Assembly: GCA_025617745.1 (NCBI GenBank) | Contig: CM046855.1 | Coordinates: forward strand, 12,368,380-12,432,379 | Direction of reading: 5' to 3' | From: Heliocidaris erythrogramma | Lineage: Eukaryota; Echinodermata; Echinoidea; Camarodonta; Echinometridae | DNA: 64,000 nt | In this document: positions 17,319 through 50,050 of the stretch, piece by piece | How the letters are laid out: each line of letters begins with the position of its first letter | Numbering within the stretch: position 1 is the stretch's first letter | The notes under the pieces: model-generated | The model's database searches: none | The model's input: only the letters and a program-made list of their open reading frames with translations | What the model was told of the DNA's origin: nothing | Made by a program: the position numbers and the translations under genes

Positions 17319-17759
17319 CTGAAAAAGTATAGCAAGAAAACAGTTCAATAATGATAGTAATACCGAAAATAATCAAATCAGTGAGATTTGGTTAACATTG
17401 TTAATAGATGAAAGTAATACTGACATTAATGATAAATTATTATTATTATTAATGATAATAAAAATTCTTATTATTATAATAATTATAATAATAAGAATAA
17501 TAACTAGACATTGAATTCGTCACTGAAGACGAATTAGGTGATCTGTCTTTTGATCTTGATATTTTTGACGAAGACGAATGACAAAATGATAATGTGAAAC
17601 ATGACGTTGATATCGGTAATTATAATGAATCTATTCACAATTTTTATGATTTCAGCCTTTTCCTAGCATTTTTAATTCGTAGGCTCTACTACCTATTTTA
17701 GTGAAATAGCGCCCCTTTGTTTCAATGGGGCATAGAGTGTGTGAACATGAATTTTGGAT

Positions 17760-18050
17760 GATTCGTGGATATCATGACAGTGATGATGATAATGATGTTG
17801 ATAATCATCATCATCATCCCGAATATCATCATGACGATGATGATGTTGATGATAATGATGATAATGATGATAATATAATGACGATGATAATGATGATTAT
17901 GATGGTGATAATGATGATGATTGATGGTGATGATAATGATGCTGATGATAATCATCATCATCATGAATATCATCTCAGTGATGATGATATTGATGTTGAT
18001 GATAATAATGATGATGATAATGATAATGGTGATGACCATGACTGAAGTGA
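17760..18050. repeat. GAT/CAT minisatellite of HINE2
   Basis: Degenerate tandem GATGATGATAATGATGTT-type units with CATCATCAT blocks. The same array occurs at 20,050-20,280 and 33,750-33,990 at the equivalent position of each HINE2 copy. It is open in several frames and yields D/N/H-rich or I/M-rich peptides that are not credible proteins. Confidence 0.8.
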
Positions 18051-18505
18051 CATTGACCTTAGCCATGCCAAATATGAAAGAGAGATGACATTTCGTGAAG
18101 AAGATACGATCATAAGTTGATCTTTACAAAATGACGCCTGGATGACGTCACAATAATCTGATGACCTTGAAAAAGATGCGGGAACTTGACCTTATTAGGA
18201 CTGATGACTGACAAAAATTTGAAGATAATTGACTAAGCCAATTCTGAGATATTGTGATGTCAAATAGGACTATTTGATATTGCAGGATGCTTGGGAGATA
18301 AACCCCATAGCTCTAATACACGACAGGGAATCACAATTTCCGTAGGGTTGTACACAAACTATTGCACACTACTTTCTAATAGATATAACACGGAAAATAA
18401 GGCAGTTTATTGCATGGTTTGTGATTGTTTATGTTATAATAGTCGAAGAGGATGGTAAAATGACAGGCAAAAAGAAGCAAAAAAAAAAAAAAAAAAATTA
18501 TGGAC

Positions 18506-18572
18506 CCACCGGGGATCGAACCTGGGTCACCGGAATGGGAGTCAAGTGCTTTGACCAATATACCAAAATATT
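18506..18572 (-). repeat. tRNA-derived segment inside HINE2
   Basis: The minus strand reads TGGTATATTGGTCAAAGCAC (A-box-like) and GGTTCGATCCCCGGTGGGTC (B box). Equivalent segments are at about 20,744-20,811 and 34,409-34,475. An A-rich run lies on the plus-strand 5' side, so it looks like a tRNA-SINE head captured by an ancestor of the HINE2 family. Confidence 0.6.
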
Positions 18573-19777
18573 CCCCATAGAGATAACACGTAAACGAAAA
18601 ACGGGATTCTCAAATCACATATTATAGTTTAAAATTGACAATGATCCCGACATTAGATTGAAAAAACCGAACCCTCATAAAAAGAGTATGTATCAGGCTA
18701 CAACATATTAAAATCTGGAAGGAAATAGACCAAAAATAACTGAGATACTGCTCAGAGAACGATGTCATGTACATTCATGATTCGAAAAAAAATCATCTTC
18801 CATAGACATAACACGCAAATAGGGGAAATTCTGACATGTCGTTTTTAATTGAAAATTTCACTGTGATGACGTCATCAAAATGAAGAACCGTGGTGACTGA
18901 TCTTGTAGAGAATTGTCTCAGCTATAACATATCAAAATTTGGAAGAAAATCAACCACTTATTAATGAAATATTATGAAATGAATACAAAAATGATGACGT
19001 CATTTTTTCAAAATCATTTTTTTGAGTTCATATGCAAATAGGATGACGTCAGAACGTGAGATCGGCAAAAATGCTGCATGAATTCAAATCTACAACTCTC
19101 AGGCTTTCAGAATATGTAAAGAAATTGGGAGGTTTCCGTGCATTCTGACGAGCTATGGCGGATTTTAGATAGGCATGTTTTTACCACTTTTTACATTAGA
19201 ATGCCCATTGACGCGCGCACGAATTTGAAAGTTTCACGCACGCGTGTGGCATTATGGTAGGTCGAGAAAGACTGTAAATAGTTAGAAATTGTCAAGAATA
19301 GTGTCAGGAAGACAAACCATGCGAAAAAACGGCGTTTTTACGTTATGTACGCGCTGCGCGCGCGCATAACGCGCACACGGACGCGCACGGACGGAAAATT
19401 TTAAAATGCTTCAAATGTCCTGAACCGTACTCTAATTTGATTAAAAAGTGATTTTGAGCATTTCTTAATTTTGACGCGCGCGTACGTGCGCGTCATGATG
19501 CGTGCGCGGATTTTGATGACATTTTATGTTGACCCTTGACCTGAAGTTCATGTGTGTCAAATATGGTTCATTTCTGATGACTCGTTATGAAGATATGATT
19601 GATAATGTGATTTCACAAAATGGCGCCTGGATGACGTCACGATGACATGATGACCTTGAAAAAGATTTTGGAGCTTGACCTTATATGACCTGATGACTGA
19701 CGGAAATGTCATGAAAATTGACTGAAAAGTTTTTGAGATTTCGTTGCAACAAGAAAGGGCCAGAAAATAAAAATAAA

Positions 19778-20231
19778 CTAGACATTGAATTCGTCACTGA
19801 AGACGAATTAGGTGATCTGTCTTTTGATCTTGATATTTTTGACGAAGACGACTGACAAAATGATAATGTGAAAGATGAGGTTGATATCACGATGAGATTA
19901 ATTATAATGAATCTATTCACGATTTTTATGATTTCAGCCTTTTCCTAGCATTTTCAATTCGTAGGCTCTACTACCTATTTTAGTGAAATAGCGCCCCCTT
20001 TGTTTCAATGGGGCATAAAGTGTGTGAACATGAATTTTGGATGATTCGTGGATATCATGACGGTGATGATGATAATGATGTTGATGATAATCATCATCAT
20101 CATCATGAAAATCATCATGACAGTAATGATAATGATATTGATGATAATCATGATGATGATCATTATATCATGACAGTGATGATGATAATGATGTTGATGA
20201 TAATCATCATCATGGTGATGATGATGCTATA

Positions 20232-20263
<32 letters not shown>

Positions 20264-22095
20264 GATAATGGTGATGACCATGACTGAAATGACATTGACC
20301 TTAGCCATGCCAAATATGAAAGAGAAATTACATTTCGTGAAGAAGATACGACCATAAGTTGATTTTTTACAAAATGGCGCCTGGATGACGTCACAATAAT
20401 CTGATGACCTTGAAAAAGATGCGGGAACTTGACCTTATTATTGATGACTGACAAAAATTTGAATATAATTGACCAAGCCCATTTTGAGAAATTTTGATAT
20501 CAAATAGGACTATTTGATATTGCAGGTTACTGGGAGATAAATCCCATAGCTCTAATACACGACAGGGAATCACAATTTCCATAGGGTTGTACACAAACTA
20601 CTGCACACTACTTTCTAATAGATATAACACGGAAAATAAGGCAGTTTATTGCATGGTTTGTGATTGTTTATGTTATAATAGTCGAAGAGGATGGTAAAAT
20701 GACAAGCAAAAACAAGCAAAAAAAAAAAAAAAAATTTATGGACCCACCGGGGATCGAACCTGGGTCACCGGAATGGGAGTCAAGTGCTTTGACCAATATA
20801 CCAAAATATTTCCCATAGAGATAACACGTAAACGAAAAACGGGATTCTCAAATCACATTTTTTAGTTTAAAATTGACAATGATCCCGACATCAGATTGAA
20901 AAAACCGAACCCTCATAGAAAGAGTATTTATCAGGCTACAACATATTAAAATCTGGAAGGAAATAGACGAAAAATAACTGAGATACTGCTCAGAGAACGA
21001 TGTCATGTAGATTCATGATTCGAAAAAAAATCATCTTCCATAGACATAACACGCAAATAGGGGAAATTCTGACATGTCGTTTTTAATTGAAAATTTCACT
21101 GTGATGACGTCATCTAAATGAAAAACCGTGGTGACTAATCTTGTAGAGAATTGTCTCAGCTATAACATATCAAAATTTGGAAGAAAATAGACCACCTATT
21201 ACTGAAATATTATCAAATGAATACAAAAATGATTACGTCATTTTTTTAAAATCATTTTTTTGAATTCATATGGAAATATGATGACGTCAGACCATGCGAT
21301 CGGCAAAAATTCTGCATGAATTCAAATCTACAACTCCCAGGCTTTCAGAATATGCAAAGAAATTGAGGGGTTTCCTCCCATTCTGACGAGCTATGGCGGA
21401 TTCTATATAGGCATGTTTTTACCACATTTTACATTAGAATGCCCATTGACGCGCGCACGAATTTGAAAGTTTCACGCACGCGTGTGGCATTATGGAAGGT
21501 CGAGAAAGACTGTAAATAGTTGGAAATTGTCAAAAAGAGTGTCAGGAAGACAAACCATGCAAAAAAACGGCGTTTTTACGTTATGTACGCGCTGCGCGCG
21601 CGCATAACGCGCACACGGACGCGCACGGACGGAAAATTTTAAAATGCTTAAAATGTCCTGAACCGTACTCTAATTTGATTAAAAAGTGATTTTGAGCATT
21701 TCTAAATTTTGACGCGCGCGTACGTGCGCGTCATGATGCGTGCGCGGATTTTGATGACATTTTATGTTGACCCTTGACCTGAAGTTCATGTGTGTCAAAT
21801 ATGGTTCATTTTTGATGACTCGTTATGAAGATATGATTGATAATGTGATTTCACAAAATGGCGCCTGGATGACGTCATGATGACCTGATGACCTTGAAAA
21901 AGATTTTGGAGCTTGACCTTATATGACCTGATGACTGACGGAAATGTCATGAAAATTGACTGAAAAGTTTTTGAGATTTCGTTGCAACAAGAAAGTGGGA
22001 GAAAATAAAAATAAATAAATAATAATAATAAAGAAATAAAGAAAGAAAATTCTGACGAATATAAGAGGTGATCTGTCGACTACGACAGATCACCT
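19778..22095 (-). mobile_element. HINE2 element, inner copy
   Basis: A complete 2.3-kb copy with both ends (CTAG at 19,778; end hairpin to 22,095), inserted in the A/T-rich tail of the outer copy between AATAAA and AATAAATAA. Nearly identical to the outer copy over most of its length, so both are young. The GAT/CAT minisatellite is at 20,050-20,280 and the tRNA-like piece at 20,740-20,811. Confidence 0.75.
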
Positions 22096-22361
22096 AATAA
22101 ATAAATAAATAATAAATAAAGAAAGAAAATTCTGACGAATATAAGAGGTGATCTGTCGACTACGACAGATCACCTAATTATGACAATAATCATAACAAAA
22201 GTAATAATAAGAATGATAACAATGACAACAGTAATGGGAAAAAAATGCATCTAAAAGTTACTTTATATTGTTGGATGGAAGAATACGTCATGAGGTATCA
22301 ATGACGAAAAAAAATCAGTCAGATTTGGTTAACATTGTTCATAGATGTAAAGTTCCTTTAC

Positions 22362-22544: not shown

Positions 22545-22661
22545 CTGAAAAAGTATAGCAAGAAAATAATTGAATAAGGATAGTAATACCGAAAATAATA
22601 AAATAAGTGAGATTTGGTTAACATTTGGTTAATATTGTTAATAGATGTAAAGTTCCTTTAC

Positions 22662-24494: not shown

Positions 24495-26580
24495 CTAGAA
24501 ATGTGCATTGCTGGTGCCGCGCAATGCGAAATGTATCCCCCGGCACTGGCAGCGATTTGAAGGAGGGACAAAGACCCTCCCCCATCCCCTCCCTCAAACA
24601 AAAGGATGGTGTAGAAATTGCCGCCAGTGGCCCGGAATATTGTCAACACTAGGAGCAGCATTACCAAAACGATTTGTGCAGATTAGAGTATAATGCATTT
24701 TTATAGAAAATTCGGAAGAAATATGACCTCAGAGCGCACATAAGCCATCCACTAAAATATGACCTTTGATTGATCCTATGAAAGACGGAACACTAGAGGC
24801 AGTATCACCAAAAACTGTAGAGGTGTAATCTATAATGGACCTACATACAAAATCTGAAAGAAATGAGTTAACAAATGTGTCCTCCAGAATGCATGCAACG
24901 AAAATATGACATTTGACCCTAATAACAACCTGAATATGACATTTGACTGTATAGAAAGTGGTACAGTGGGGGTAGCATCAGCAAACAATTTAGATGTGTA
25001 GGTTTCACTAAGACACATCTTCATATAAAATTTTAAAGAAATGTGTTGAGAGATATACCAAGATACATCTCCATACAAAATTCGAAAGAAATCCATCAAG
25101 AAATGTGGCCTGCAGAGTGCACACACGCCATGCCCTGAAGTATGACCTTTGACCCTATAAAAGACGGAACACTGGTGGCAGCATCACCAAAAACTATAGG
25201 TTTTTAGATTACACCAAGAGACACCTTCATGCAAAATCTGAACGAAAGCTGTCAAGAAATGCAGAAGAGTGCAAGAAATGGGAAAATGACCTTTGACCCT
25301 ATAAAGGACGGAACAATGAGGGCAGCATCACCAAAAATTAAATATGTGTAGATTTAAATATACCAAGATACATCTCCATACAAAATTTGAATGAAATCCG
25401 TCAAGAAATGCAGAAGTAAGAGTGCACAAAAGGGACAAATGAGCTTTGACCCTATAAAGGACGGAACAATGAGGGCAGCATCACCAAACAGTAAAGATGT
25501 GTAGATTATACCAAGATACATCTCCATACAAAATTTGAATGAAATCCGTCAAGAAATGCAGAAGTAAGAGTGCACAAAATGACAAATGAGCTTTGACCCT
25601 ATAAAGGACGGAACAATGAGGGCAGCATCACCAAACAGTAAAGATGTGTAGATTATACCAAGATACATCTCCATACAAAATTTGAAAGAAATCCATCAAG
25701 AAATGTGGCCTGCAGAGTGAATTCACGCCATCCCTTGAAGTATGACCTTTGACCCTATAAAAGACGGGACACTGGTGGCAGCATCACCAAAAAGTACAGG
25801 TTTTTAGATTACACCAAGGGACACCTTCATGCAAAATTTGAACGAAATCCGTCGAGAAATGCAGAAGAGTGCAAGAAATGGAAAAATGACCTTTGACCCT
25901 ATAAAGGACGGAGCAATGAGGGCAGCATCACCAAAAATTAAACATGTGTAGACTATACCAAGATACATCTCCATACAAAATTTGAACAAAATCCATTGAG
26001 AAATGTGGCCTGCAGAGTGCACTTACGCCATACCCTGAAGTATGACCTTTGACCCTATAAAAGACGGAACACTGGTGGCAGCAACACCAAACGCTATAGG
26101 TTTTTAAATTACACCAAGAGACACCTTCATGCAAAATTTGAACGAAATCCGTGGAGAAATGTGACCGCCAGAGCGCACACAATAGTACACACAAGACATC
26201 TATCAAAATATGACCTTTGACCCTATAAAAGACGGAACACTGGGGGGCAGCATCACCAAAATCTATAGGGTTCCAGATTTTACCAAGAGACACCTTCATA
26301 CAAAATTTGAACAAAATCCGTTAAGAAATGTGACCGCTAGAGCGCACACAAACCATCCCCAAAAAATATGGCCTTTTACCCTATAAAAGACGGAACACTG
26401 GGGGCAGCATCACCAGAAACTACAGGGGTCCAGATTTTACCAAGATACACGTCCACAGGAAGTCTGAAAGAAATTCGTCGAGAATTGTGACCGCTAGAGC
26501 GCACACAAGAATGTGACGCGGCGGCGGCGGCGAAACGCTGCTGAATCCAAAGGATCCTCCAGCATACTGCCAGGGGATAC
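24495..26580 (-). mobile_element. HINE1a: Helentron-like element with minisatellite core
   Basis: The low end reads CTAGAAATGTGCATTG with a hairpin GCATTG...CAATGC-type pair just inside (here one base diverged), then GTATCCCCCGGCA. The high end is GCATACTGCCAGGGGATAC, the inverted partner of GTATCCCC. The core is a tandem array of about 145-155 bp units containing TGACCTTTGACCCTATAAA and GGCAGCATCACCAAAA. Other introns of the array show the empty site (gtaataataagaatg), which gives AA at both junctions. No coding capacity. A diverged, longer copy is HINE1b. Confidence 0.75.
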
Positions 26581-29157: not shown

Positions 29158-29503
29158 CTGAAAAAGTATAGCAAGAAAACAATTGAATAATAATGATAGT
29201 AATACCGAAAATAATCAAATCAGTGAGATTTGGTTAACATTGTTAAAAGATGAAAGTAATACTGACATTAATGATAAATTATTATTATTATTATAATAAT
29301 TATAATAATAAGAATAATAATTATGACAATAATCATAACAAAAGTAATAATAAGAATGATAACAATGACAACAGTAATGGAAAACAAATGTGTCTAAAAG
29401 TTACTTTATATTGTTGGATGGAAGAATACGTCATGAGGTATCAATGACGAAAAAAATCAGTCAGATTTGGTTAACATTGTTAATAGATGTAAAGTTCCTT
29501 TAC

Positions 29504-33608: not shown

Positions 33609-35718
33609 CTAGAATTTAATTCGTCATGAGGACGAATTAGGTGGTCTGTCTTTCAATTTGTATGATCATGATTGTAATCAGGATGATCATAATAATGGGG
33701 AAATACTATAAACTGAAGATAGGAAGTCAAGAATGCCACGCATGGAGGTGATGATCATGACGGTGATGATATATCATCACCATCATCATTATATCATCAT
33801 GACAGTGGTGATGATAATGAAGTTGATGATAATCATCATCATCATCATGAATATCATCATGACAGTGATGATGATAATGATGTTGATGATAATCATGATG
33901 ATGATCATTATATCATCATGACAGTGATGATGATAATGATGTTGATGATAATCATGATGGTGATAATGATGATGATGGGGATAATGATGATGAACATGAC
34001 TGCAATGACAGTGACCTTAACCAATGCCAAATATAAAAGAGAGATCACATTTTGTTATGAAGATACGACCATAAGTTGAATTTTAAAAAAGTTGCTGGAA
34101 CTTGACGTTACTGGGACTGATGACTGACTAAAATTTGAAGATAATTGACGAAGCCAATTTTGAGATATCAAATAGCACTATTTGACATTGCAGGATACTT
34201 GGGAGATAAACCCAATAGCTTTAATACACCACAGGGAATCACAATTTCCATAGGGTTGTACACAAACTACTGCACACTACTTTCCAATAGACAAAACACG
34301 CAAAATAAGGCAGTTTAGTACATGGTTTGTGATTGTATATGATATAATAGTCGAAAAAGATGGTAAAATGAAAGGCAAAACGAAGCAAAAAAAAAAAAAT
34401 TTTTAATGGACCCACCGGGGATCGAACCTGGGTCACCGGAATGGGAGGCAAGTGCTATAACCAATATACCAAAATATTTCCCATAGAGATAACACGTAAA
34501 CAAAAAACGGGATTCTCAAACCCCATTTTGTAGTTAAAAATTGGGCATGATCCCGACATCTGATCAAAAATTGGAGACAACACTTATAAAAGCTTATAGT
34601 CTCAGCTACAACATATTAAAATATGGAAGAAAATAGACCAAAAACAACTGAGATACAGCTCAGAGAACAATGTCATGTAGATTCATGATTCGAAAAAAAT
34701 TCATCTTCCATAGACATAACACGCAAATAGGGAAAATTCTGACATGGCATCTTTAATTGAAAATTTCACTGTGATGACGTCATCAAAATGAAAAATGGTT
34801 GAAACTGATTATGTAGGAAATTGCCTTAGCTATGACATATCAAAATCTGGGCGAAAAACGACCAATAATTACGAATCTAGAGCCAAATTAGCATAAATGT
34901 GATGACGTCAAAACATGAAAAATGGAAATTTTGATTTCTGGTGCCATTTTGATGACGTCATAATGTTTATAAGGGTCAAATGATACATGAAATGAAATCT
35001 ATGATTCATACCCTACCTGATGATGAAAAAAAATTGGGGGGTTTATAGACTATTTAAAGAGCTAAAGTTAATTTTGCAGAGGCATGTTTTTGCACGTTTT
35101 TACGTTATTTTCGCCATAGATGCGCGCACGGATTTTGAACTTTGACGCGCCCGTACGACCTTATTATTGATTGATATTGATTCCAAGTTGATGGAAATGA
35201 TGAAGAAAAGTGTCAGGATTGCAAATCAATCGAAAAAACAGCGTTTTAACGTTATTTACGGACGCTTACGCACGGACATTTTTGAAATGCTCAAAATGAC
35301 CTGAAACGTGTGCAGACGTGATCCTACGTGATTTGGAGCATTTTAAAATTTTGACGCGCGCGTACGCGCACGTCCTGACCTCTAGATGACCTGTGAGGAC
35401 ATAACTTGATGACCCGTCATGTGAAGTTTATATGATGTGAATATAGTTGATTTTTGATGATCGATTATGAAGATATAATCCATCTTGTAAATTTACAAAA
35501 TGGCGTCTTGATGACGTCCGATGACCTGATGACCTTCAAAAGCTTAGTTGACCATGTCCATGATTGACCTCATACATGACATGAAATTCGATGATAGTGA
35601 CCTGACCGATTTTGAGATTTGGTGGGAACAAAAATTTGTAATAAAAAGAAGAAATAATAAAAATAAAGAAAATCTTGACAAAATTAAAAGGAGGTCTGTC
35701 ATAAATGACAGACCACCT
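33609..35718 (-). mobile_element. HINE2b element
   Basis: A diverged relative of the 17.5-22.2 kb elements. The low end is CTAG plus hairpin AATTCGTC-atgag-GACGAATT and AGGTGGTCTGTC; the high end is the hairpin AGGTCTGTC-ataaat-GACAGACCACCT. It contains the GAT/CAT minisatellite (33,750-33,990), the tRNA-like segment (34,409-34,475) and TGACGTCA sites. The left flank ends AA and the right flank is AA, at once followed by the CTAG of HINE3. Confidence 0.7.
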
Positions 35719-36089
35719 AACTAGAAAGGCCGTCAAAGGCGGCAGACCCACGCCTACAGAGTAGCGGCGCTACAGAGTAGTTGCAATACTATAATAACTA
35801 TGGGGTCAAAACTACAAGGTTACACAGAATTTGCAGGCGTCAACCTACACTCTTAGAACAGGTGGTAAAATAACATGTGGTTAAACAGTTGTGGTAAGAA
35901 CATGTGTCAAAATGTACACATATCTGTGTAAAAGCATGAAACAAGGGTACACAGCATGCGAGTTAAACGTTTACACCTGCACCGCGGTTAAAAAGAAACC
36001 CGATTCTGGTCAAACTTCGTTCGCTTGTCAAAATGTTACCCCATTTGTGGTAATCATCTACACACTTGGACACGATGACAAAAGAGAGT

Positions 36090-36290
36090 GGGCAAAATAT
36101 ACAGCTCCTCATTGTACCCCACAATTGTTCTGGTAGAAGAACATCCCTTCATTGCTATTATGTAAAATAAGTAGAACCGTGAATATGCATGTACACCTGT
36201 TCTACATTTTCAATGAAGGGATGTTCTTTGTCTACCAGAACCAGAGTGGAAGGTACAATGAGGAGCTGTATATTTTGTCCGCTTCTTTGT
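36090..36290. repeat. Small foldback repeat (copy 1)
   Basis: Inverted arms with CAGCTCCTCATTGTACC on the left and GGTACAATGAGGAGCTG on the right, plus AAGAACATCCCTTCATTG and its complement. Other copies lie at 58,200-58,395 and at 58,716-59,150 (the last interrupted by a MITE). Confidence 0.7.
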
Positions 36291-36357
36291 TTGCCATGTT
36301 CATAGTTCTAGTGTGTGTATATAGGCGCGAAACGCGGCCGGGTACGATCACAATGTA

Positions 36358-37990
36358 CAGTTGACAACAAAATTCTAGTTTTTTGCATTTTTCCTAAAAA
36401 TGAATGGTTAAATGAAGTTACTTGCACATCACTTGAATACATTTAGTTATCATCTGCAAATGAATGCCGTTTCCGGTTTCACCTCATTTGCATAACAATA
36501 GAAAAGGTGAGTTATCCAAACTGGGCGATGTTCACAATTATTCATACCCTTGGTGATTTATTGACTTTGTCAATCAGTATGAATCCGATCCTTGTGATTA
36601 ATGCTTGTAATTCACTTTATTATAATACACCGTCACAGGGCTTCCGGAGGGGTCTCTACTGGGATATCAGGCCAGTACCTGTTCTCCAATGGCTCAATCT
36701 CCTTGAGGATGTGTCCACACATGCCTTCACCTGACCTTCAGGGAGTTCATTAGATTTCGTGTCCTACAGGTGATGCAGTTATCGACTTCATGATGACAGG
36801 ACTATGATATTGAAATTTTCGGTCATTTATTCCATGCATTTTAATGAAAATTCTGTATCTACTTATGAAGCAAAGCACCATTCCTGAAGAGCCCTTCCCT
36901 TTTGCACTGCCTGTGGGAGGGTTCACCTTTATTCATTGGCCCCCATTCTTAATCAGAGTGCTCAGGAAGGCCATGTTGGTGATATTAAAGTCATTTCATG
37001 ACTCTAACGTCAGGTCACCATGAATAACAGCATGTAACCTTTGAGTACCATACACATCCCACATTGACTTACTGTATACCAATCTTCATATGGTATATTC
37101 TTTGTATCTTTGGTATGAAAGCTACAATCCTTGATATCAAAATGAATGTAAACCAAATTTATACCATATGCCCTCCATGTTACCAGCTGCAGTGCACGAA
37201 ATGCTACCAGTTTGACAGTGCACTGGAACATATAAAGATCAGTATTTTAAGCTTCACTAGAGTACCCACTTGCAGGTGTCCATATCAAAAATGTGTCAGT
37301 GTAACTGAATAAACTGATAAAATTGGCACCATCCAACCTTTAGACAACTACCATGGCCTCCCTGAACATAATGGAACAAAAGTATCAGGAAATACCTTCC
37401 CTTGACAGTGCAACAGTGAATGCCTCTAGGGAAGTCTCTCCAGGAAGAGTGCTTTGTTTCAACTTAGATACAGAATTGTCATTAAAATGTAAGGAATATT
37501 AACGAAAATATCAATATCATAGTCCTATCCTCATGACGTCTAAAACTACACCACCTGCAAACACAAAATCTGCTTTAAATCCATCGAATCCCCTGAAGAC
37601 CAGGTGATGGCATGTGTGGACAACATCCTCAAGGAGATTGGGCCATTGGAAACCAGGTATTGGCCTGATATCTCAGTAGAGACCTCCAGAAGCATTGTGA
37701 CAGTGTGAAGAAAGTGTTACGAGCATTAATCACAAGGACTGGATTCATACTGATTGACAAAGTCAATAGATCACCAAGGGTATGAATAATTTTGAACATC
37801 ACCCAGTTTGGATAATTCACCTTTTCTATTGTTATGCAAATGAGGTGAAACCAGAAACAGCATTCATTTGCAGATGATAACTAAATGTATTCATGTGATG
37901 TGCAATTAAATTCAGTTAACCATTCATTTTTAGGAAAAATGCAAAAAACTAGAATTTTCCAAGGGGTATGAATAATTTTGTTGTTAACTG
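36358..37990. mobile_element. Tc1/mariner-like palindromic element
   Basis: Ends CAGTTGACAACAAAATTCTA and the inverse (GTTGTTAACTG), with TA on each side. The two arms pair over several hundred bases (GGTATGAATAATT and GACTTTGTCAATCAGTATGA recur inverted), so the element is a diverged long palindrome of 1.6 kb. No transposase frame was recognised. Confidence 0.7.
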
Positions 37991-39540
37991 TACATGCAGT
38001 GCAGTGGTGAAGCTACACTACACAGTTCATCGTCATCATGGAGTCGTTGCTGAGATCGTGGGGGATGCCAGCCGATGTCATCTCTTCATTTAATTGTAAA
38101 ACATTCACATTATCATTGTATTAATTTTATTATTGCATCAGAAGCTATGTTATAGACCCAGAGCACATTTCAGTGGTGATTGCACATTGGAAGTGGATGT
38201 TTGATGTTGCGTTCCGCCGTGAAGGCCGGCGGAGAAGCCCGGGGCGGAACTTCCCGATTTACACGTGTGCACCAATACTTTCATAGCCAGCCAAAAATGC
38301 TATGCAGTTAGCTCAATTTTTGTCCAGATTTATTCCTAAGTATCTATAGTGTGACGCCACCATTATAATATAATTATGTCTAAATTATATGTAAATCATT
38401 TGTGAAAATGTGAAAATCAACCTTTCAGATCATGTTATATAGTTGGAAAGTCTATTGTAACATTGTTTTGTAGTTTGTCTTGTTTTCCATTATTGAGATG
38501 CAAGTTTTAAGAGGAAATGCGTTTGTCAAAACTATATCAAAATGCTTGAAGTTAGTTTTTTTTCCAACAAATTCACAAAACAAGAAACATACATCCAGGT
38601 TTTCGCCCTTTTCTTTTGGAAAATTGACCAAATTGTAAAAAAAGAAGCTTGTAATTGTAAACTTTTATTGTGATTGATCCACATTCCAGCATTTAGAGTA
38701 TAATTATATGTAAATTATATGTCAACCTTTCTGATATTTAAATACTGTAGTTTAAAATCTGTTAAACTTTTTTTTGAACTTTTTTCATGCTTATTAAAAT
38801 GCAAGTTTAACAAAACATAATTTTCATTGTGCATTTGTCTTGTAGTCTCAGCTCATCCTGGTGTAGACATTTAGTGTAAAAAGTGACACATTGGGGTGTG
38901 GTAAAAAGTATGGGGTGAATTCTGTACCACTTAAGGCGTAAAATAATAACACAGCTGCGGGGTGAATTGTTACACAGGCTGGTAGTGGTTAAAAGTTGCA
39001 CAGTATGGGGTAAAAAAGGGAAGATGGTCGTTTTGGGGTAAGATGTTACCCCACCCTTTGGTGCTAACATTTTACACATTAGATGTGTAAAACATAACAC
39101 ATGTATCAAGCAAAATCTAACCACTCTTGGTGTGTAATTGTTTACACCGCGGACGACCATGTTCCCTTTTAACACATTTTCGTGTTATTTTTTAACACAC
39201 ATGGGGTAACTTTTTTAAGAGTGTATCATCACCAAAATCTAATCGATTCTTGTTCGATTTTCTGTCACTATCCGAACATTCCCTGAAAATTTGGTGCAAA
39301 TCCGTCCCTCTAGTTATCTTGTACACAAACAAACAAACAAACAAAAAACAAACAAAAAACAAACAAACAAACAAAAAAACAAACGGAGCCCTTTACATAA
39401 CCCTGCCGATTTCATCGGCGTGGGTAATAACGAAAGGTAGAAGGACGACATGAGAGAATGATAAATCCACATGCCATGACGCAAGCTCTGGCCCAAATGG
39501 CTGTCATTAGGCTCCTGCCCACGTGGCTTCCACACTAATA

Positions 39541-39800
39541 TACTAATACTTAGCAGAAGCATCACCGTACCGTATATTTGTCACAATAATAAAGTGAATA
39601 AAAAGAAAAGTCGGGTAAAGTGTTATTTTTTTTACCAAGAAGTATTTACAATATATCAATACTAGCAGAAGCAGCCCGTGGACATCCACGGGCGCTAGCT
39701 GTGTTTATGATTAATCACCGTATCGTATATTTGTCACAATAATCAAGTGAATAAATAAAAAAGTCGGTAAAAGTTATTTTTACCAAGAAGTATTTACAAC
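39541..39800 (-). repeat. CTAG-hairpin repeat, tandem partial copies
   Basis: From 39,662 the sequence starts CTAGCAGAAGCAG, then the hairpin CCCGTGGA-ca-TCCACGGG. A truncated copy of the same unit precedes it (39,541-39,660). A third copy is at 56,618-56,760. The end resembles the HINE ends (CTAG next to a hairpin), but a matching second end was not found because each copy runs into the GGCGGATCCAG repeat. Confidence 0.55.
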
Positions 39801-41097: not shown

Positions 41098-41145
41098 TGA
41101 AACTACGGAGCCCCTAAGGGGACATAAAATGACACGAGTTTTTTT

Positions 41146-41485
41146 TTTTATCTCGGGGCCCCGACTTATTAACTCGGGGCCCCGACTCATTATCTCGGGG
41201 CCCCGACTTATTAACTCGGGGCCCCGAGATAATAAGTCGGGGCCCCGAGATAATAAGTCGGGGCCCCGAGTTATTATCTCGGGGCCCCGACTTATTAACT
41301 CGGGGCCCCGAGTTATTATCTCGGGGCCCCGAGTTATTATCTCGGGGCCCCGACTTATTAACTCGGGGCCCCGACTTATTATCTCGGGGCCCCGAGTTAT
41401 TAACTCGGGGCCCCGACTTATTAACTCGGGGCCCCGACTTATTATCTCGGGGCCCCGAGTTAATAACTCGGGGCCCCGACTTAAT
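41146..41485. repeat. CGGGGCCCCG minisatellite, left arm
   Basis: Sixteen units of 21 bp, each with the perfect palindrome TCGGGGCCCCGA and an A/T linker (GTTAATAAG or GATAATAAG in either orientation). Because 21 is a multiple of three and the unit is palindromic, it is open on both strands as SGPRxxx repeats. Confidence 0.92.
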
Positions 41486-41667
41486 TATCAGCATACGATA
41501 CCATGCATATGTACGGGGCTCCGTACATATATGCATACACTACCAGCCGTATCAACAATCCCCATGCTGTTTTAACGCGCCATGCTTGCCTAAGTCACCA
41601 TACCTTACAGTCAAGAATGGACGAACGAGAACAAGAACAAAATGATGTGATTTAGGTTTGTTTCGAA

Positions 41668-42103
41668 ATGGGACTTTTGTATAAAGATATAGTCACGGTT
41701 CTTTCAACAGAGTGCGGAATTATCATTTCTACCCGTCATTTGCATGGGCGTCGGAACTCGGAAGGGATTTTTGATTGGTCCGGCTCCGCCTGCCGTGCCG
41801 TAGGCACGGTGCGTGCCCCAGGCACGCCAGCCAAAAAAGGTAGATTATTGGTCAGGCTCAAGCCGGGCCGGCCGGGCCGGCTCCGACCCCCATGATTTGA
41901 AACGGCTTCTCAGACAGCTTGGTTTGTTTAGAAGAAAAAACTACAATCACATCGGTGAGGTAGTTGAATTTGTCCAAAGGCAGGTTGAGCGATCGGGTCG
42001 TCTACATGGTTACCGGTGGATGTTTGAAAAATGTTTAGCACATCATATTAAGTGTAAAAAAGATAACCACTATAGATGGGTTGGCAATGTAAGGGGGAAT
42101 TAA
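41668..42103 (+). pseudogene. Transposase N-terminal fragment, left arm
   Basis: Outside the inserted MITE (41,749-41,890) the frame reads MGLLYKDIVTVLSTECGIII, STRHLHDLKRLLRQLGLFRR, then VEFVQRQVERSGRLHGYRWM and FEKCLAHHIKCKK, about 97 residues in all. It resembles the N-terminal helix-turn-helix part (GYRWM-x-x-C motif) of an integrase-core transposase family common in animal genomes. The DDE catalytic domain is absent, so the element is non-autonomous. Family assignment is from memory. Confidence 0.6.
41749..41890. mobile_element. MITE with GGCGTCGGA ends inside transposase (left arm)
   Basis: A 142-bp G/C-rich element with GGCGTCGGA at one end and TCCGACCCC at the other, flanked by CATG on both sides (4-bp target duplication). 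Removing it joins TTTGCATG to ATTTGAAA in frame. The same element occupies the same site in the right arm (44,557-44,692). Confidence 0.75.
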
Positions 42104-42719
42104 TAAATGTAACAGAAACAATATGTGAATCCTGATTTATTAGGAAAAATATGTGTTGTCATTGTCAGATTGTTATATTTAATCAAATCTGACAAACTGT
42201 TGTTATGCTCTTTATGAATGTCAATCTGAAATTCTTTGGATTTTCATTGATCTATGGATTAATACACAAACAGCTACTAAAATAGAAAGGTATACATTTT
42301 GTCAAAGTGAGCTTGAAGTATGTCAAAATCAGATACATTTATGATCGGCTGCCAAGTTATCAATGTCAGAGAAATTTCAGCTTGTAAGTGACAATGCAAT
42401 GCTATTTTAAAATCTGTGATAGAATTAAATGAATGATGACAATAGCCCGGATATTGTAAAGTTTTGATCTTAGATGGCGCTGTTACCATTAGTACCGGCC
42501 GAGTGCGTACTGGCCGCAAGTCACATTGATAAAAATGAATGAAAATAAATTTGCCTATGTACCAAAAATTATAAAAATAATGATTATCTTGTTTTCTTTT
42601 ATTTATTTCAGTTATGTTCATTATTTTAACCAGTAAAACGTGGATAAGAGAAATACTGAGAAATAAAAGAAAGATGTATAGATGATGTTGATGATGATAA
42701 ATTTAATGAAAGAAAACAA

Positions 42720-43330
42720 TTTTAATACCTAGGCTTATAGTGTGGGATGAGAAGCAGAAATCTAATGAATACAGATAATAAACAAAGAGTGAAAGAATTA
42801 AGAAATTTAAGAAACAAGAATGAAAACAAAGAGGGAAGGAAGCAAAGAAGTGAGAGAGGATGAACATAAGAAAAAGGAAGGAAGGAGGGGAAGAAAAAGA
42901 ACAAAAGAAAGAAGGATCGAAAAGTGATCCAAGAAACAAAAAAAAAAGAAAGGTAGAAAGAAAGAATCAAATAAAACAAAAAAGAACTAAGAAAGATTGA
43001 AAAGGGGAAATTAAGAATGAGTTTAAAAGAACAAAAAGAAACAAGAAGAAACAAAGAAAAAAAGGAAATATAAACGGAGGAAATAGAAAAGGAAAGAATT
43101 GAAAAGAATACAGTAACGAAAGAAAGGAAGGAAAACAAAGAAACAAAAAGAAACTAATAGAGAGAAGAAAAATAAACTAATAAACGAAGAAAGAACGAAC
43201 GAAAGCGAGAGTAAAACAAAGAAAGAAAATATGAAGAATTAATGAGAAAAAAATTATGGAAGCTGGAACAAAGAATAGCAGGAGAGAAAACATATAATTG
43301 AGAAGGGAGAAGAAAAGAAAGGAAAGGATG
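42720..43330. repeat. Polypurine (GAAA-rich) tract
   Basis: About 600 bp in which the plus strand is mostly A and G (AAGAAAGAAAGGTAGAAAG and similar). The mirror-image pyrimidine tract is at 43,437-43,735 in the right arm. Open stretches of F/S/L-rich peptides on the pyrimidine strand are composition artefacts. Confidence 0.75.
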
Positions 43331-43334
43331 TTGT

Positions 43335-43436
43335 TATCCTTCGTAAGGTGACTTAGGCAAGCATGGCGCGGTAAAACAGCATGGGGATTGTTGATACGGC
43401 TGGTTACGGAGCCCCTAAGGGGACATAAAATGACAT
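43335..43436. repeat. Third copy of the IS3EU-like terminal sequence
   Basis: GGTGACTTAGGCAAGCATGG ... TACGGAGCCCC ... AAATGACA lies at the centre of the palindrome, without the GGGGCCCC array that separates the same blocks in the outer arms. It marks the junction between the two arms. Confidence 0.7.
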
Positions 43437-44343
43437 TAATTTCCCCTTTTCAATCTTTCTTAGTTCTTTTTTGTTTTATTTGATTCTTTCTTTCTACCTT
43501 TCTTTTTTTTTGTTTCTTGGATCACTTTTCGATCCTTCTTTCTTTTGTTCTTTTTCTTCCCCTCCACCCTTCCCTTTTCTTATGTTCATCCTCTCTCACT
43601 TCTTTGCTTCCTTCCCTCTTTGTTTTCATTCTTGTTTCTTAAATTTCTTAATTCTTTCACTCTTTGTTTATTATCTGTATTCATTAGATTTCTGCTTCTC
43701 ATCCCACACTATAAGCCTAGGTATTAAAATTGTTTTCTTTCATTAAATTTATTATCATCAACATCATCTACATCTTTCTTTTATTTCTCAGTATTTCTCT
43801 TATCCACGTTTTACTGGTTAAAATAATGAACATAACTGAAATAAATAAAAGAAAACAAGATAATCATTATTTTTATAATTTTTGGTACATAGGCAAATTT
43901 ATTTTCATTCATTTTTATCAATGTGACTTGCGGCCAGTACGCACTCGGCCGGTACTAATGGTAACAGCGCCATCTAAGATCAAAACTTTACAATATCCGG
44001 GCTATTGTCATCATTCATTTAATTCTATCACAGATTTTAAAATTGCATTGCATTGTCACTTACGAGCTGAAATTTCTCTGACATTGATAACTTGGCAGCC
44101 GATCATAAATGTATCTGATTTTGACATACTTCAAGCTCACCTTGACAAAATATATACCTTTCTATTTTAGTAGCTGTTTGTGTATTAATCCATAGATCAA
44201 TGAAAATCCAAAGAATTTCAGATTGACATTCATAAAGAGCATAACAACAGTTTGTCAGATTTGATTAAATATAACAATCTGACAATGACAACACATATTT
44301 TTCCTAATAAATCAGGATTCACATATTGTTTCTGTTACATTTA

Positions 44344-44771
44344 TTAATTCCCCCTTACATTGCCAACCCATCTATAGTGGTTATCTTTTTGACACTTAAT
44401 ATGATGTGCTAAACATTTTTCAAACATCCACCGGTAACCATGTAGACGACCCGATCCCTCAACCTGCCTTTGGACAAATTCAACTACCTCACCGATGTGA
44501 CTGTAGTTTTTTCTTCTAAACAAACCAAGCTGTCTGAGAAGCCGTTTCAAATCATGGGCGTCGGAGCCGGCCCGGCCGGCCCGGCTTGAGCCTGACCAAT
44601 AATCTACCTTTTTGGCTGGCGTGCCTGCGGCACGCACCGTGCCTAAGGCACGGCAGGCGGAGCCGGACCAATCAAAAATCCCTTCCGACGCCCATGCAAA
44701 TGACGGGTAGAAATGATAATTCCGCACTCTGTTGCAAGAACCGTGACTATATCTTTATACAAAAGTCCCAT
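44344..44771 (-). pseudogene. Transposase N-terminal fragment, right arm
   Basis: Inverted copy of 41,668-42,103 with a few base differences (for example SHIGEVVEFVQRQVEGSGRL), again carrying the MITE at 44,557-44,692. It is not intact and has no catalytic domain. Confidence 0.6.
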
Positions 44772-44955
44772 TTCGAAACAAACCTAAATCACATCATTTT
44801 GTTCTTGTTCTCGTTCGTCCATTCTTGACTGTAAGGTATGGTGACTTAGGCAAGCATGGCGCGTTAAAACAGCATGGGGATTGTTGATACGGCTGGTAGT
44901 GTATGCATAATGTACGGAGCCCCGTACATATGCATGGTATCGTATGCTGATAATT

Positions 44956-45331
44956 AAGTCGGGGCCCCGAGATAATAAGTCGGGGCCCCGAGTTAATAAG
45001 TCGGGGCCCCGAGATAATAAGTCGGGGCCCCGAGTTAATAAGTCGGGGCCCCGAGATAATAAGTCGGGGCCCCGAGTTAATAAGTCGGGGCCCCGAGTTA
45101 ATAAGTCGGGGCCCCGAGTTAATAAGTCGGGGCCCCGAGTTAATAAGTCGGGGCCCCGAGATAATAACTCGGGGCCCCGAGTTAATAAGTCGGGGCCCCG
45201 AGATAATAAGTCGGGGCCCCGAGTTAATAAGTCGGGGCCCCGAGATAATAACTCGGGGCCCCGAGTTAATAAGTCGGGGCCCCGAGTTAATAAGTCGGGG
45301 CCCCGAGTTAATAAGTCGGGGCCCCGAGATA
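44956..45331. repeat. CGGGGCCCCG minisatellite, right arm
   Basis: Eighteen 21-bp units, two more than in the left arm, and more regular (mostly TCGGGGCCCCGAGTTAATAA). The two arrays have therefore changed length since the palindrome formed. Confidence 0.92.
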
Positions 45332-45383
45332 AAAAAAAAAAACTCGTGTCATTTTATGTCCCCTTAGGGGCTCCGTATGAAAC

Positions 45384-45960
45384 ATAGTACATGCAGTAGG
45401 CCTACATGTAGAAGTGCGCTGTGCGAAGGAATAACACGTGTGTTGCTGCGCCGTGTATATTGAAGCCACACATACGCTGTGTGAACGTATAACACGTGTG
45501 CTGTTGCGCCGTATATACTGTACATTGAAGCCATCCATGCATGCGGATATGGCCACGCTGTGTGTAATGTTTAAAAATTAATATATGAAATATGGACGGC
45601 ACGTCAGCCCTTCAGAAGTGCCTCCCACCACTCTAATAACCATTCCCCGCCCATGGGTACCAAAAGGCGGGGATCGAAACGGCCAGGGGAGACGCCTATT
45701 CGAACCAAAGAAAAGGCCCCAAATCCTTAGTGTAATATATATATAGATGTGTTATATATCAAAATCTTACATGAGTTCTGAAGAAAATACATTTTTATGT
45801 AACCAAGGTAAACAAAGTGAAAATGAGAAAAAAGAGAAACTTAAAAAGCCATAAAGGCCTTGTCTAGAAGTCCTCTAACAAAAAGTTCTTTGAAGTAAGT
45901 TAACGTATTATTATATTTTTTTAAAGTTAAATTTCAATAATAAAGTAAGAGTGTAAGATA
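45384..45960. other. Flank shared with 59.26-59.64 kb
   Basis: A two-fold tandem of about 65 bp (GAATAACACGTGTGTTG..., 45,427-45,540), then a segment (GGACGGCACGTCAGCCC through CAAATCCTTAGTGTAAT, 45,592-45,735) matching 59,494-59,635. No coding signal. From 45,745 it is A/T-rich and unassigned up to the LINE 3' end. Confidence 0.6.
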
Positions 45961-46029
45961 AGGAAAAAAAATTAAACAATTAAACAATAAAAACATGTCA
46001 GAGAGGGGAACGGCAGGTATATACATGTA

Positions 46030-46950
46030 TTAATCAGTGGAGTTACATTTTGAATATCTGGATAAGAAGTATTTTTTCAGTGATTTCTTAAATAATCGTT
46101 GACTATGGCAACTGGATATATTGCTCGGTATGGCATTCCAAATTATAGGAAGAGAGAAGCGCAAAGACTTTATCTCAAAACCGTATGAAACTTTCCAACG
46201 ATGAAAACAATGTTTACTCCTTGTATTATGGTTATGAAGGCCGATATTGACATTAAACATATTTGATATTGTATATGGAAGTAGAATTTGAGAATAGGAG
46301 AATCCCAGAACTGCAGTATAAAACTGATATAAATCAGATATGGTAAGTGTTTTTACTTTTATAAACAGAGGAGCAGAATGGGCAAGGTAGTGGCTTTTAG
46401 TACATGTACGCAAGGCTTTTTTCTGTAATTTAAATAGTGTATCTGTCTTTGTTTTGCCACAGTTCCCCCAAACCGTAATACAATAAGATAAGTATGGTAA
46501 TATTAGAGTATTATACAACAAAATCAAAGAAGAAAGGGGAAGATAATGCTTTATTTTATACAAAATACCAACGCATCTCGATACTTTACCAGTTACATAA
46601 TTTACATGCGCATCCCACTTCATGTTACGTTCAATATAAATACCAAGAAAATTAACAACATCCACTTTAATCAGAGGAGTAAAATCTATATAAAGAGTTA
46701 TACTATCAAGTGTATTGGATATATTTTTTCTGTTTTGGTCACAAAATATCATTGAAGTAGTTTTTTTCTTATTAATTTTCACTTTATTGACTTTGAACCA
46801 TTTAGAAACTTTGGCTAGTTCAAAATTAACAGTCTGCTCTAAATTTGACACATCATTTTGAGTATAAAATAATGTTGTATCATCTGCATACATTGTAAAT
46901 ATAAAATTATCAGATGATTTAATAATATCATTAACATAAATCAAAAATAA
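46030..46950 (-). pseudogene. LINE RT carboxy half
   Basis: An open frame of about 300 residues starting LFLIYVNDI right after the HINE1b junction. It contains the catalytic FTMYADDTTLF, then FLGIYIERNMKWDAHV and the C-terminal RT region up to RYSKCNSTD and a stop at 46,030. No stop codon inside. Confidence 0.88.
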
Positions 46951-49900
46951 CTAGAAATGTGCATTGCTGGGGCCGCGCAATGCTAAATGTATCCCCCGGC
47001 ACTGGCAGCGATTTGAAGGAGGGACAAAGACCCTCCCCCATCCCCTCCCTCAAACAAAAGGATGGTGTAGAAATTAGATGTGTAGGTTTCACTAAGACAC
47101 ATCTTCATATAAAATTTGAAAGAAATGTGTTGAGAGATATACCAAGATACATCTCCATACAAAATTTGAAAGAAATCCATCAAGAAATGTGGCCTGCAGA
47201 GTGCACTCACGCCATGCCCTGAAGTATGACCTTTGACCCTATAAAAGACGGAACACTGGTGGCAGCATCACCAAAAACTATAGGTTTTTAGATTACACCA
47301 AGAAACACCTTCATGCGAAATTTGAACGAAATCCGTCAAGAAATGCAGAAGAGTGCAAGAAATGGAAAAATGACCTTTGACCCTATAAAAGACGGAACAC
47401 TGGTGGCAGCATCACCAAAAACTATAGGTTTTTAGATTACACCAAGAGACACCTTCATGCAAAATTTGAACGAAATCCGTCAAGAAATGCAGAAGTAAGA
47501 GTGCAAGAAATGGAAAAATGACCTTTGACCCCATAAAGGACGGAACAATGAGGGCAGCATCACCAAACAGTAAAGATGTGTAGATTATACCAAGATACAT
47601 CTCCATACAGAATTTGAAAGAAATCCATCAAGAAATGTGGCCTGCAGAGTGCACTCACGCAATTCCCTGAAGTATGACCTTTGACCCTATAAAAGACGGA
47701 ACACTGGTGGCAGCATCACCAAAAACTATAGGTTTTTAGATTACACCAAGAAAACACCTTCATGCGAAATTTGAACGAAATCCGTCAAGAAATGCAGAAG
47801 AGTGCAAGAAATGGGAAAATGACCTTTGACCCTATAAAGGACGGAACAATGAGGGCAGCATCACCAAAAATTATATATGTGTAGATTATACCAAGATACA
47901 TCTCCATACAAAATTTGAATGAAATCCGTCAAGAAATGCAGAAGTAAGATTGCACAAAAGGGACAAATGAGCTTTGACCCTATAAAGGACGGAACAATGA
48001 GGGCAGCATCACCAACCAGTAAAGATGTGTAGATTATACCAAGATACATCTCCATACAAAATTTGAAAGAAATCCATCAAGAAATGTGGCCTGCAGAGTG
48101 AACTCACGCCATCCCTTGAAGTATGACCTTTGACCCTATAAAAGACGGGACACTGGTGGCAGCATCACCAAAAAGTACAGATTTTTAGATTACACCAAGG
48201 GACACCTTCATGCAAAATTTGAACGAAATCCGTCGATAAATGCAGAAGTAAGAGTGCAAGAAATGGAAAAATGACCTTTGACCCTATAAAGGACGGAACA
48301 ATGAGGGCAGCATCACCAAAAATTAAACATGTGTAGATTATACCAAGATACATCTCCATACAAAATTTGAACAAAATCCGTTGAGAAATGTGGCCTGCAG
48401 AGTGCACTCACGCCATGCCCTGAAGTATGACCTTTGACCCTATAAAAGACGGAACCCTGGTGGCAGCATCACCAAACACTATAGGTTTTTAAATTACACC
48501 AAGAGACACCTTCATGCAAAATTTGAACGAAATCCGTTGAGAAATGTGACCGCCAGAGCGCACACAAGAGTACACACAAGACATCTATCAAAATATGACC
48601 TTTGACCCTATAAAAGACGGAACACTGGGGCAGCATCACCAAAATCTATAGGGTTCCAGATTTTACCAAGAGACACCTCCATACAAAATTTGAACAAAAT
48701 CCGTTGAGAAATGTGACTGCTAGAGCGCACACAAACTATCCAAAAAAATATGGCCTTTTACCCTATAAAAGACGGAACACTGGTGGCAGCATCACCAAAA
48801 ACTATAGGTTTTTAGATTACACCAAGAAAACACCTTCATGCGAAATTTGAACGAAATCCGTCAAGAAATGCAGAAGAGTGCAAGAAATGGAAAAATGACC
48901 TTTGACCCTATAAAGGACGGAACAATGAGGGCAGCATCACCAAAAATTATATATGTGTAGATTATACCAAGATACATCTCCATACAAAATTTGAATGAAA
49001 TCCGTCAAGAAATGCAGAAGTAAGATTGCACAAAAGGGACAAATGAGCTTTGACCCTATAAAGGACGGAACAATGAGGGCAGCATCACCAACCAGTAAAG
49101 ATGTGTAGATTATACCAAGATACATCTCCATACAAAATTTGAAAGAAATCCATCAAGAAATGTGGCCTGCAGAGTGAACTCACGCCATCCCTTGAAGTAT
49201 GACCTTTGACCCTATAAAAGACGGGACACTGGTGGCAGCATCACCAAAAAGTACAGATTTTTAGATTACACCAAGGGACACCTTCATGCAAAATTTGAAC
49301 GAAATCCGTCGAGAAATGCAGAAGTAAGAGTGCAAGAAATGGAAAAATGACCTTTGACCCTATAAAGGACGGAACAATGAGGGCAGCATCACCAAAAATT
49401 AAACATGTGTAGATTATACCAAGATACATCTCCATACAAAATTTGAACAAAATCCGTTGAGAAATGTGGCCTGCAGAGTGCACTCACGCCATGCCCTGAA
49501 GTATGACCTTTGACCCTATAAAAGACGGAACCCTGGTGGCAGCATCACCAAACACTATAGGTTTTTAAATTACACCAAGAGACACCTTCATGCAAAATTT
49601 GAACGAAATCCGTTGAGAAATGTGACCGCCAGAGCGCACACAAGAGTACACACAAGACATCTATCAAAATATGACCTTTGACCCTATAAAAGACGGAACA
49701 CTGGGGCAGCATCACCAAAATCTATAGGGTTCCAGATTTTACCAAGAGACACCTCCATACAAAATTTGAACAAAATCCGTTGAGAAATGTGACTGCTAGA
49801 GCGCACACAAACTATCCAAAAAAATATGGCCTTTTACCCTATAAAAGACGGAACACTGGGGGTAGCATCACCAGAAACTATAGGGGTCCAGATTTTACCA

Positions 49901-50050
49901 AGATACACGTCCACAGGAAGTTTGAAAAAAATTCGTCGAGAAATGCGACCGCTAGAGCGCACACAAGAATGTGACGCGGCGGTGGCGGCGGCGGCGGCGG
50001 CGAAACGCTGCTGAATCCAAAGTATCCTCCGGCATACTGCCGGGGGATAC
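46951..50050 (-). mobile_element. HINE1b: Helentron-like element inside the LINE RT
   Basis: The low end is CTAGAAATGTGCATTG, with hairpin GCATTGctgg...CCGCGCAATGC, then GTATCCCCCGGCA. The high end is a hairpin CTCCGGCATAC-TGCCGGGGGATAC preceded by (GGC)n. The core has about 18 minisatellite units of 144-156 bp, with a further 1,076-bp duplication inside (47.80-48.78 kb against 48.88-49.85 kb). The LINE reading GPLL|FLIYV shows that the insertion lies within AA/TT: left flank ...AATAA, right flank AATAAGGGG. Confidence 0.78.
47227..49850. repeat. About 150-bp minisatellite of HINE1b
   Basis: Units contain TATGACCTTTGACCCTATAA, GGCAGCATCACCAAAA, a TAGATTATACCAAGATACAT or TTTTAGATTACACCAAGAGA variant, and AATTTGAACGAAATCCGT. 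Two variants partly alternate, giving a dimeric register. The short open frames in it (MEMYLGIIYTSLL and similar) are artefacts of the repeat. Confidence 0.88.

Follow-up and report, generated by a model that had tools for sequence, protein, structure and literature searches.

The 64,000-nucleotide stretch of Heliocidaris erythrogramma DNA analysed here (CM046855.1, positions 12,368,380 to 12,432,379; hereafter the window) raises the question of why three repeat families with different sequences end in the same way. A reading made from the letters of this DNA (the sequence-only reading) had placed six insertions between positions 17504 and 50050, assigned them to three families, HINE1, HINE2 and HINE3, ascribed to all of them the architecture of Helentron-type rolling-circle elements, and concluded that one source of enzyme mobilises them. 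We recover the same six elements with exactly these outer coordinates, and we are highly confident that they are HINEs, non-autonomous rolling-circle derivatives of Helentrons, in three families. Their place in this published class is well supported, because the architecture of their ends, their empty sites, the boundaries of copies elsewhere in the genome and the Helentron-type Rep/helicase (RepHel) genes of the same genome all agree with it. The single enzyme source is the part of the earlier reading that is not supported.

In minus-strand orientation, each of the six elements has CTAG as its 3' end and TT on either side, and the 5' ends of the three families are GTATCC, AGGTG and ACCCAC. 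Read from 5' to 3', the order is TT, a hairpin-forming subterminal repeat, a microsatellite (present near the 5' end in each of HINE1, HINE2 and HINE3), the body or minisatellite, an inverted copy of the subterminal repeat, a 3' hairpin, CTAG and TT (Table 1). The stem of the 3' hairpin is 7 bp long in HINE1, 8–9 bp in HINE2 and 4 bp in HINE3, and the gap to CTAG is 4–6 nt. Counting CTAG, the 3' palindrome of HINE1 and HINE2 lies 8–10 nt from the element end, and the HINE class has stems of 5–10 bp at 8–35 bp from the end. When folded as DNA, five 3' ends have z-scores of −2.0 to −6.7 against shuffles (the letters of HINE2b are those of HINE2a), with HINE1 scored on a longer recut after an initial shorter cut had given z +0.4. 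Additionally, an inverse copy of the 5' terminus lies near the 3' end, matching over 13 nt in HINE1b, 12 of 13 in HINE1a, 12 nt in HINE2 and 9 nt in HINE3; the class criterion is a subterminal inverted repeat of about 11–15 bp, within which HINE1 and HINE2 fall. This copy is 38 nt from the 3' end in HINE1, 32 and 30 nt in HINE2 and 25 nt in HINE3. The 5' hairpin folds at z −4.1 to −9.1 in HINE1b, HINE2a, HINE2c and HINE3 (HINE2b again has the letters of HINE2a) and has decayed in HINE1a (z −0.5), and is thus found in five of the six copies. Among the features described in the sequence-only reading, the CTAG end, the inverse 5' terminus beside the 3' hairpin (9–13 nt across the three families) and the flanking AA (TT on the minus strand) are all confirmed; its 5–8 bp hairpin 4–8 nt before CTAG stands as to presence and spacing but not as to the stem of HINE3, and its second hairpin at the 5' end stands except in HINE1a. 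That reading had overlooked the 5' microsatellite of each family, the position of HINE2b within HINE2a, a HINE2 fragment at 16005–16301 that has only the 5' end, and further elements nested in HINE3.

The search that had been proposed from these features was run in the window as CTAGTT with a hairpin and an inverse match to the 9-mer after TT, 0.3–6 kb away, and it singles the elements out: of the CTAGTT sites, 6 of 8 on the minus strand and none of 10 on the plus strand obey, compared with a mean of 0.6 and a maximum of 3 per window in 100 block dinucleotide shuffles, under limits (stem of at least 4 bp, 9-nt repeat) that were chosen with the six elements already known and so that HINE3 would pass. 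With the 5' hairpin added, the shuffle mean falls to 0.14, and five of the six real matches remain. Dropping CTAG from the scan yielded 98 and 41 rows, among which simple repeats and foldback arms at 41–45 kb were frequent and some near the window ends exceeded the length limits; this version was set aside as uninformative. The shared orientation of the six elements is unremarkable, because the minus strand holds 77% of the TT near the sites and the probability of a single strand is 0.21.

The empty sites define the target. In the three of six window copies that have an empty site, the target is one TT and the filled site carries two. Specifically, when the HINE1a flanks are closed over a single TT, 21 places in the window match with 8 mismatches or fewer (the first four listed are exact), and closing them over no base or one base gives no such place; for HINE2a, an exact match is found at 29299. 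These two sets of sites are paralogues from the sushi-exon array of the window. The frame that hosts HINE1b, with RVT_1 on both sides of the element, closes to GVPQGSILGPLLFLIYVND only at a 2-base overlap, and overlaps of 0, 1 and 3 fail. Duplications longer than two bases at most loci had been named beforehand as evidence against the sequence-only reading, and the three window empty sites show one TT only. The extra TT is either a 2-bp duplication or a TT borne by the element, which are indistinguishable from these data; for the mite elements, the sections of PMC4067079 compared here likewise leave the allocation of the Ts open and report no target-site modification. With one TT kept, five of six sites read ATTA, a pattern noticed after the fact (P = 3.5e-4 under the local expectation), counting HINE2c and HINE3, which share a 5' flank, on the assumption that HINE3 arrived later.

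The HINE1 and HINE2 copies fetched from the rest of the genome (1.06 Gb in 26 contigs) keep the same 3' boundary. For HINE1, there are 498 first-look candidates, and the 40 that were scored are all 100% identical over 120 bp. All 30 fetched loci, one of which is the window's own, read CTAG followed by TT; the query started at CTAG, and therefore copies with a lost end are invisible to it. Seven 5' ends were found in these 30 loci, and ATT precedes every one of them; in the window, 30.5% of TT have an A before them. A count restricted to exact HINE1 3' ends with a following TT gives 1577 genome-wide, balanced by strand (787 and 790), with 0 for a reversed control. For HINE2, all eight fetched loci, again including the window's own, read CTAG followed by TT, and a dimer junction like that of the window is present in four of the seven others. 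HINE2 3' ends recur at steps of 2270–2274 bp at three places (40 scored), and its 5' units form runs of 2–7 at 24 of the 40 places scored (one being in the window itself), where 5 of 15 pairs depend on a partial second unit and the query is itself such a unit. Runs of 5–7 HINE2 5' units, about 50–100 bp apart, are seen at C2:64529079-64529468, C18:15545683-15546193 and C3:55649564-55650076. HINE3 has 1210 first-look candidates, of which 40 were scored (39 besides the window's own), most being 94% identical over 125 bp. Copies with a differing 3' boundary, part of the other observation that had been named in advance as adverse, do not appear among the fetched loci of HINE1 (picked with a query beginning at CTAG) and HINE2.

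The families had been described as different in sequence, and blastn between HINE1, HINE2 and HINE3 finds no match at E 1e-3. A common module of HINE1 and HINE3 reaches z = 6.0 against query shuffles (at most 1.3 in the other seven comparisons); it is undercut by 3 of 300 other window segments that score equally high and by a profile of 26 HINE1 monomers that matches the HINE3 stretch only at E = 3.8. The module is not established, so the statement of different sequences stands. Within HINE2, on the other hand, HINE2b is 92.7% identical to HINE2a, and HINE2c is about 75% identical to both. One position changes alike in the 5' arm, the inner arm and the 3' copy between HINE2a/b and HINE2c, and the inner arm of HINE2c has one additional change beyond this concerted one.

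By analogy with the published class, transposition would begin with a Helentron RepHel-endonuclease nicking at the TT beside the 5' end. One strand would be peeled off during copying, its displacement would stop at the 3' hairpin and CTAG, and the displaced strand would be joined into a new TT. The ends could be held near each other by base pairing between the two subterminal repeats, in keeping with the concerted HINE2 position, which changes alike in three arms while the bodies are only about 75% identical. The HINE2 runs of 5' ends fit rolling-circle arrays, in which numerous 5' ends are combined with a single 3' end (Xiong 2016, cited in PMC12628747); for the HINE2 dimers, an alternative would be insertion into the element's own T-rich stretch.

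Candidate sources of such an enzyme are plentiful. A PF14214 profile search of the genome gives 103 match rows (a few are two pieces of one gene), many in stop-free frames of 3000–4200 aa. A 4187-aa frame, located elsewhere in the genome and scanned apart from its first ~130 residues, carries OTU, Herpes_teg_N, DUF6570, Helitron_like_N, PIF1 and Exo_endo_phos (AP-endonuclease), and is the one RepHel frame in which the endonuclease domain was sought. Rep motif 2 has S after RG, one published Helentron sign (PMC4067079), in 29 of the 30 best loci, and one locus of the 30 (L009) has GLPH, the Helitron sign. Grouped by motif, without a tree, the 30 best loci include 17 SV, 8 SS and 4 SP types. The sequence-only reading had pointed to an autonomous Rep/helicase-endonuclease element with the same ends; Helentron-type genes are indeed present, but none with these ends was found in the pieces fetched, which do not reach the element ends. 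Specifically, no TT with a long-hairpin 5' end occurs in the RepHel-flank pieces L069–L086, and no HINE subterminal repeat was seen in the RepHel pieces obtained. The best copies of the L069–L071 lineage still align at the end of every stretch tried, L072–L074 align with gaps, and L079 and L080 are identical over all 3.5 kb. An apparent end in the L077/L078 lineage turned out to be the edge of another high-copy repeat. Two possible links to a partner were dropped: a HINE2-like stretch beside L029, which is without a HINE2 end, and a HINE2 5' end lying some 6 kb from each of two RepHel copies (on C10 and C8), where ordinary HINE2 copies stand at two places that look like mutual duplicates (equal scores). 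A search with two viral-contig patterns returned no match. On C2, C10, C11, C12, C14, C8 and C13, many RepHel copies are located no more than a few hundred kb from a contig end, which may reflect subtelomeric clustering.

Because the three subterminal repeats differ and at least three Rep motif types are present, several Helentron partners are at least as likely as one; the inference of a single source is not favoured. In line with this, the sections of PMC4067079 compared here set families by an identical subterminal repeat of at least 11 bp, and describe mite HINEs with a known partner as deletion derivatives of same-ended Helentrons. One Helentron enzyme might still move all three families by reading structure (5' hairpin, 3' hairpin and CTAG-TT) rather than repeat sequence, given that CTAG, TT, hairpin spacing and end pairing are common to families of differing sequence and that near-identical copies of at least HINE1 and HINE2 abound in one genome. 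We consider this unlikely, as the subterminal repeat is kept within a family, the three HINE2 arms that differ alike point to sequence recognition, three Rep motif types coexist, and families are defined by the subterminal repeat in PMC4067079. Quite improbable, too, is a combination in which one enzyme reads end architecture (paired subterminal repeats, 3' hairpin and CTAG-TT at an ATT target) and so mobilises several unrelated HINE families, while HINE2, inserting into its own T-rich target, gives rise to dimers and multiple 5' ends in a row, each assembly moving as a unit. Our preferred view is that the Helentron partners of the three families are probably related to one another but need not be identical.

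Two other classes are very hard to reconcile with the ends. Canonical Helitron1-type elements have a 5' TC, a 3' CTRR with a hairpin and insert between A and T; the 3' CTAG with its hairpin, the GLPH-type Rep at L009 and two minus-strand 3' ends of Helitron1-like form (39662 and 56618) are compatible with this class, but the 5' ends lack TC, a subterminal repeat with an inverted copy and a hairpin at the 5' end come in addition, every copy read has TT as its 3' flank, and empty sites with one TT contradict A/T insertion, making this assignment highly improbable. The ends at 39662 and 56618 themselves have a 9-bp GC-rich hairpin, 8 nt and CTAG, followed by TATT and TTGC. Cut-and-paste miniature inverted-repeat transposable elements (MITEs) with a TT target-site duplication would yield one TT in empty sites and TT on both sides when filled, and DINE-like elements were formerly classed as MITEs (PMC4067079), but there are no terminal inverted repeats (the inverted copy is 25–38 nt inside the 3' end), the hairpin and CTAG are confined to one end and the HINE2 runs of 5' ends fit rolling-circle copying, so that this class, too, is highly improbable.

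The assignment of the six elements to HINEs has several observations to set against it. HINE3 deviates from the class in its 3' stem, which at 4 bp is below the class range, and in its subterminal repeat of only 9 bp, and its boundary is drawn from the window copy alone. No empty site for HINE2b, HINE2c or HINE3 was found within the window. The fetched RepHel pieces, in which element ends were not reached, contain no RepHel element with HINE ends, and the tested HINE sequences do not align to them except in L029, with the HINE2-like stretch beside it, and in L074 and L072, with weak HINE2c matches. The 3' subterminal copy is 25–38 nt from the end, compared with 38–60 in mite HINEs, a range drawn from a single species. 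Finally, none of the published descriptions compared lists an invariant CTAG end among Helentron features: figures and supplements excluded, the main text of PMC4067079 has CTAG a single time, with reference to a proto-Helentron, and that of PMC7492417 has it nowhere.

Table 1. Coordinates of the HINE elements, their terminal hairpins and an associated repeat in the window
Feature	Positions	Strand	Remarks
HINE1 copy a (HINE1a)	24495..26580	-	2086 bp, ~156-bp minisatellite core
HINE1 copy b (HINE1b)	46951..50050	-	3100 bp, within reverse-transcriptase frame of a non-LTR (long terminal repeat) retrotransposon
HINE2 copy a (HINE2a)	17504..22175	-	outer element, split by HINE2b
HINE2 copy b (HINE2b)	19778..22095	-	2318 bp, within 5' subterminal T-rich part of HINE2a
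HINE2 copy c (HINE2c)	33609..35718	-	2110 bp
HINE3	35721..39425	-	3705 bp; own core ~325 bp, remainder nested elements
HINE2 5'-end-only fragment (seventh)	16005..16301	-	nearest HINE2c, 89%; near T-run, without 3' end
HINE1a 3' hairpin	24495..24527	-	7-bp stem, 6 nt, CTAG
HINE1b 3' hairpin	46951..46983	-	7-bp stem, 6 nt, CTAG
HINE2a 3' hairpin	17504..17535	-	8-bp stem, 6 nt, CTAG
HINE2b 3' hairpin	19778..19809	-	8-bp stem, 6 nt, CTAG
HINE2c 3' hairpin	33609..33639	-	9-bp stem, 4 nt, CTAG
HINE3 3' hairpin	35721..35743	-	4-bp stem, 4 nt, CTAG
HINE1b 5' subterminal repeat and inner arm	50022..50050	-	13-bp stem, one mismatch
HINE2a 5' subterminal repeat and inner arm	22146..22175	-	perfect 13-bp stem
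HINE2b 5' subterminal repeat and inner arm	22066..22095	-	perfect 13-bp stem
HINE2c 5' subterminal repeat and inner arm	35689..35718	-	13-bp stem, one mismatch
HINE3 5' subterminal repeat and inner arm	39400..39425	-	bulged hairpin
HINE3 5' microsatellite, ACAA type	39325..39384	.	repeat scan

HINE3 adjoins HINE2c, the sole spacer being a common TT at 35719–35720 that borders the HINE2c 5' end; this position, a single case, may reflect a preferred site or chance. Nested in HINE3 is an outer element at 35846–39225 with ACACTCTTA-type inverted ends, parts of which recur at 58.1–59.2 kb of the window, and within it an inner element at 36356–37996 with CAGTT-AACAAAATT-type ends between TA, Tc1-like in our own reading. 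The periodicity of HINE1a is below the 90th percentile. A Pfam scan of the six frames of at least 110 aa inside the HINEs gives nothing above cut-off (one frame has two matches below it), and no RepHel domain is found in 10 scanned frames of the 65 listed in the window.

Around the elements, a sushi-exon array of 27 repeat copies of ~300 bp extends over 10370–33093 (a sushi-domain exon in the one copy scanned) and includes a recent ~2.77-kb duplication (26.7 and 29.5 kb); four tRNA-Thr-like units lie at 27.9–31.0 kb. A foldback element at 41100–45380 has 845-bp arms that are 99% complementary (41834–42678 and 43769–44613), flanked by arrays of 21-bp palindromic units with a TCGGGGCCCCGA core. 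DIRS-like frames and three non-LTR reverse transcriptases occupy 6252–9327, 13293–14480, 46030–51960 and 62344–63380; the recombinase and reverse transcriptase matches of the DIRS-like frames are below cut-offs, and the DIRS label is our own.

Compared with known systems, the elements resemble the HINEs of mite and mosquito as far as these are described in the sections of PMC4067079 (Thomas et al. 2014) compared here. HINE-Mo of the mite Metaseiulus occidentalis has, like the present elements, palindromic subterminal repeats (12–15 bp there), and HINE-Mo and HINE-Cq (Culex) share with our elements an inverted copy before a 5–10 bp 3' palindrome, TT insertion, a noncoding body, microsatellites or tandem repeats in some copies, and autonomous Helentrons in the same genomes. 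Unlike in those two, here CTAG is found in three families, the spacing is 25–38 nt, the flanks are TT on both sides, the site is ATT-biased and a same-ended partner was not found. Cg_HINE of Crassostrea gigas, as described in the parts of PMC7492417 compared, has the same succession of 5' subterminal inverted repeat, complementary inverted repeat, microsatellite, satellite-like central repeats, 3' subterminal inverted repeat and palindrome, with several families per genome and no relatable partner; unlike it, by description, HINE2 has a long body without an array and runs of 5' ends at many places. The domain set of the 4187-aa frame is like that of Helentrons with OTU and viral-tegument-like deubiquitinase (VTD) domains in the portions of PMC9741609 consulted, although the frame lies outside the window and its element ends were not reached. 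Helitron2 of Fusarium oxysporum also has an asymmetric terminal inverted repeat with a hairpin, but no endonuclease domain, and its termini are ATTTT and CTCCTGT; in the relevant sections of PMC5148889, only one group has a stated insertion site (TNAT / T), and joined ends are reported for one FoHeli subgroup. The window adds clear-cut empty sites, including one within a coding frame, to a class whose target modification has been called unclear. It also points to a genome in which HINE families with many near-identical copies stand beside many long-frame Helentron genes, so that partner matching and recognition by structure or by sequence become directly testable. Taken together, the differences from HINE-Mo, HINE-Cq and Cg_HINE, as these are described in the parts of the sources compared, are small: the CTAG end, the shorter 3' spacing, the 4-bp stem of HINE3 and the ATT bias.

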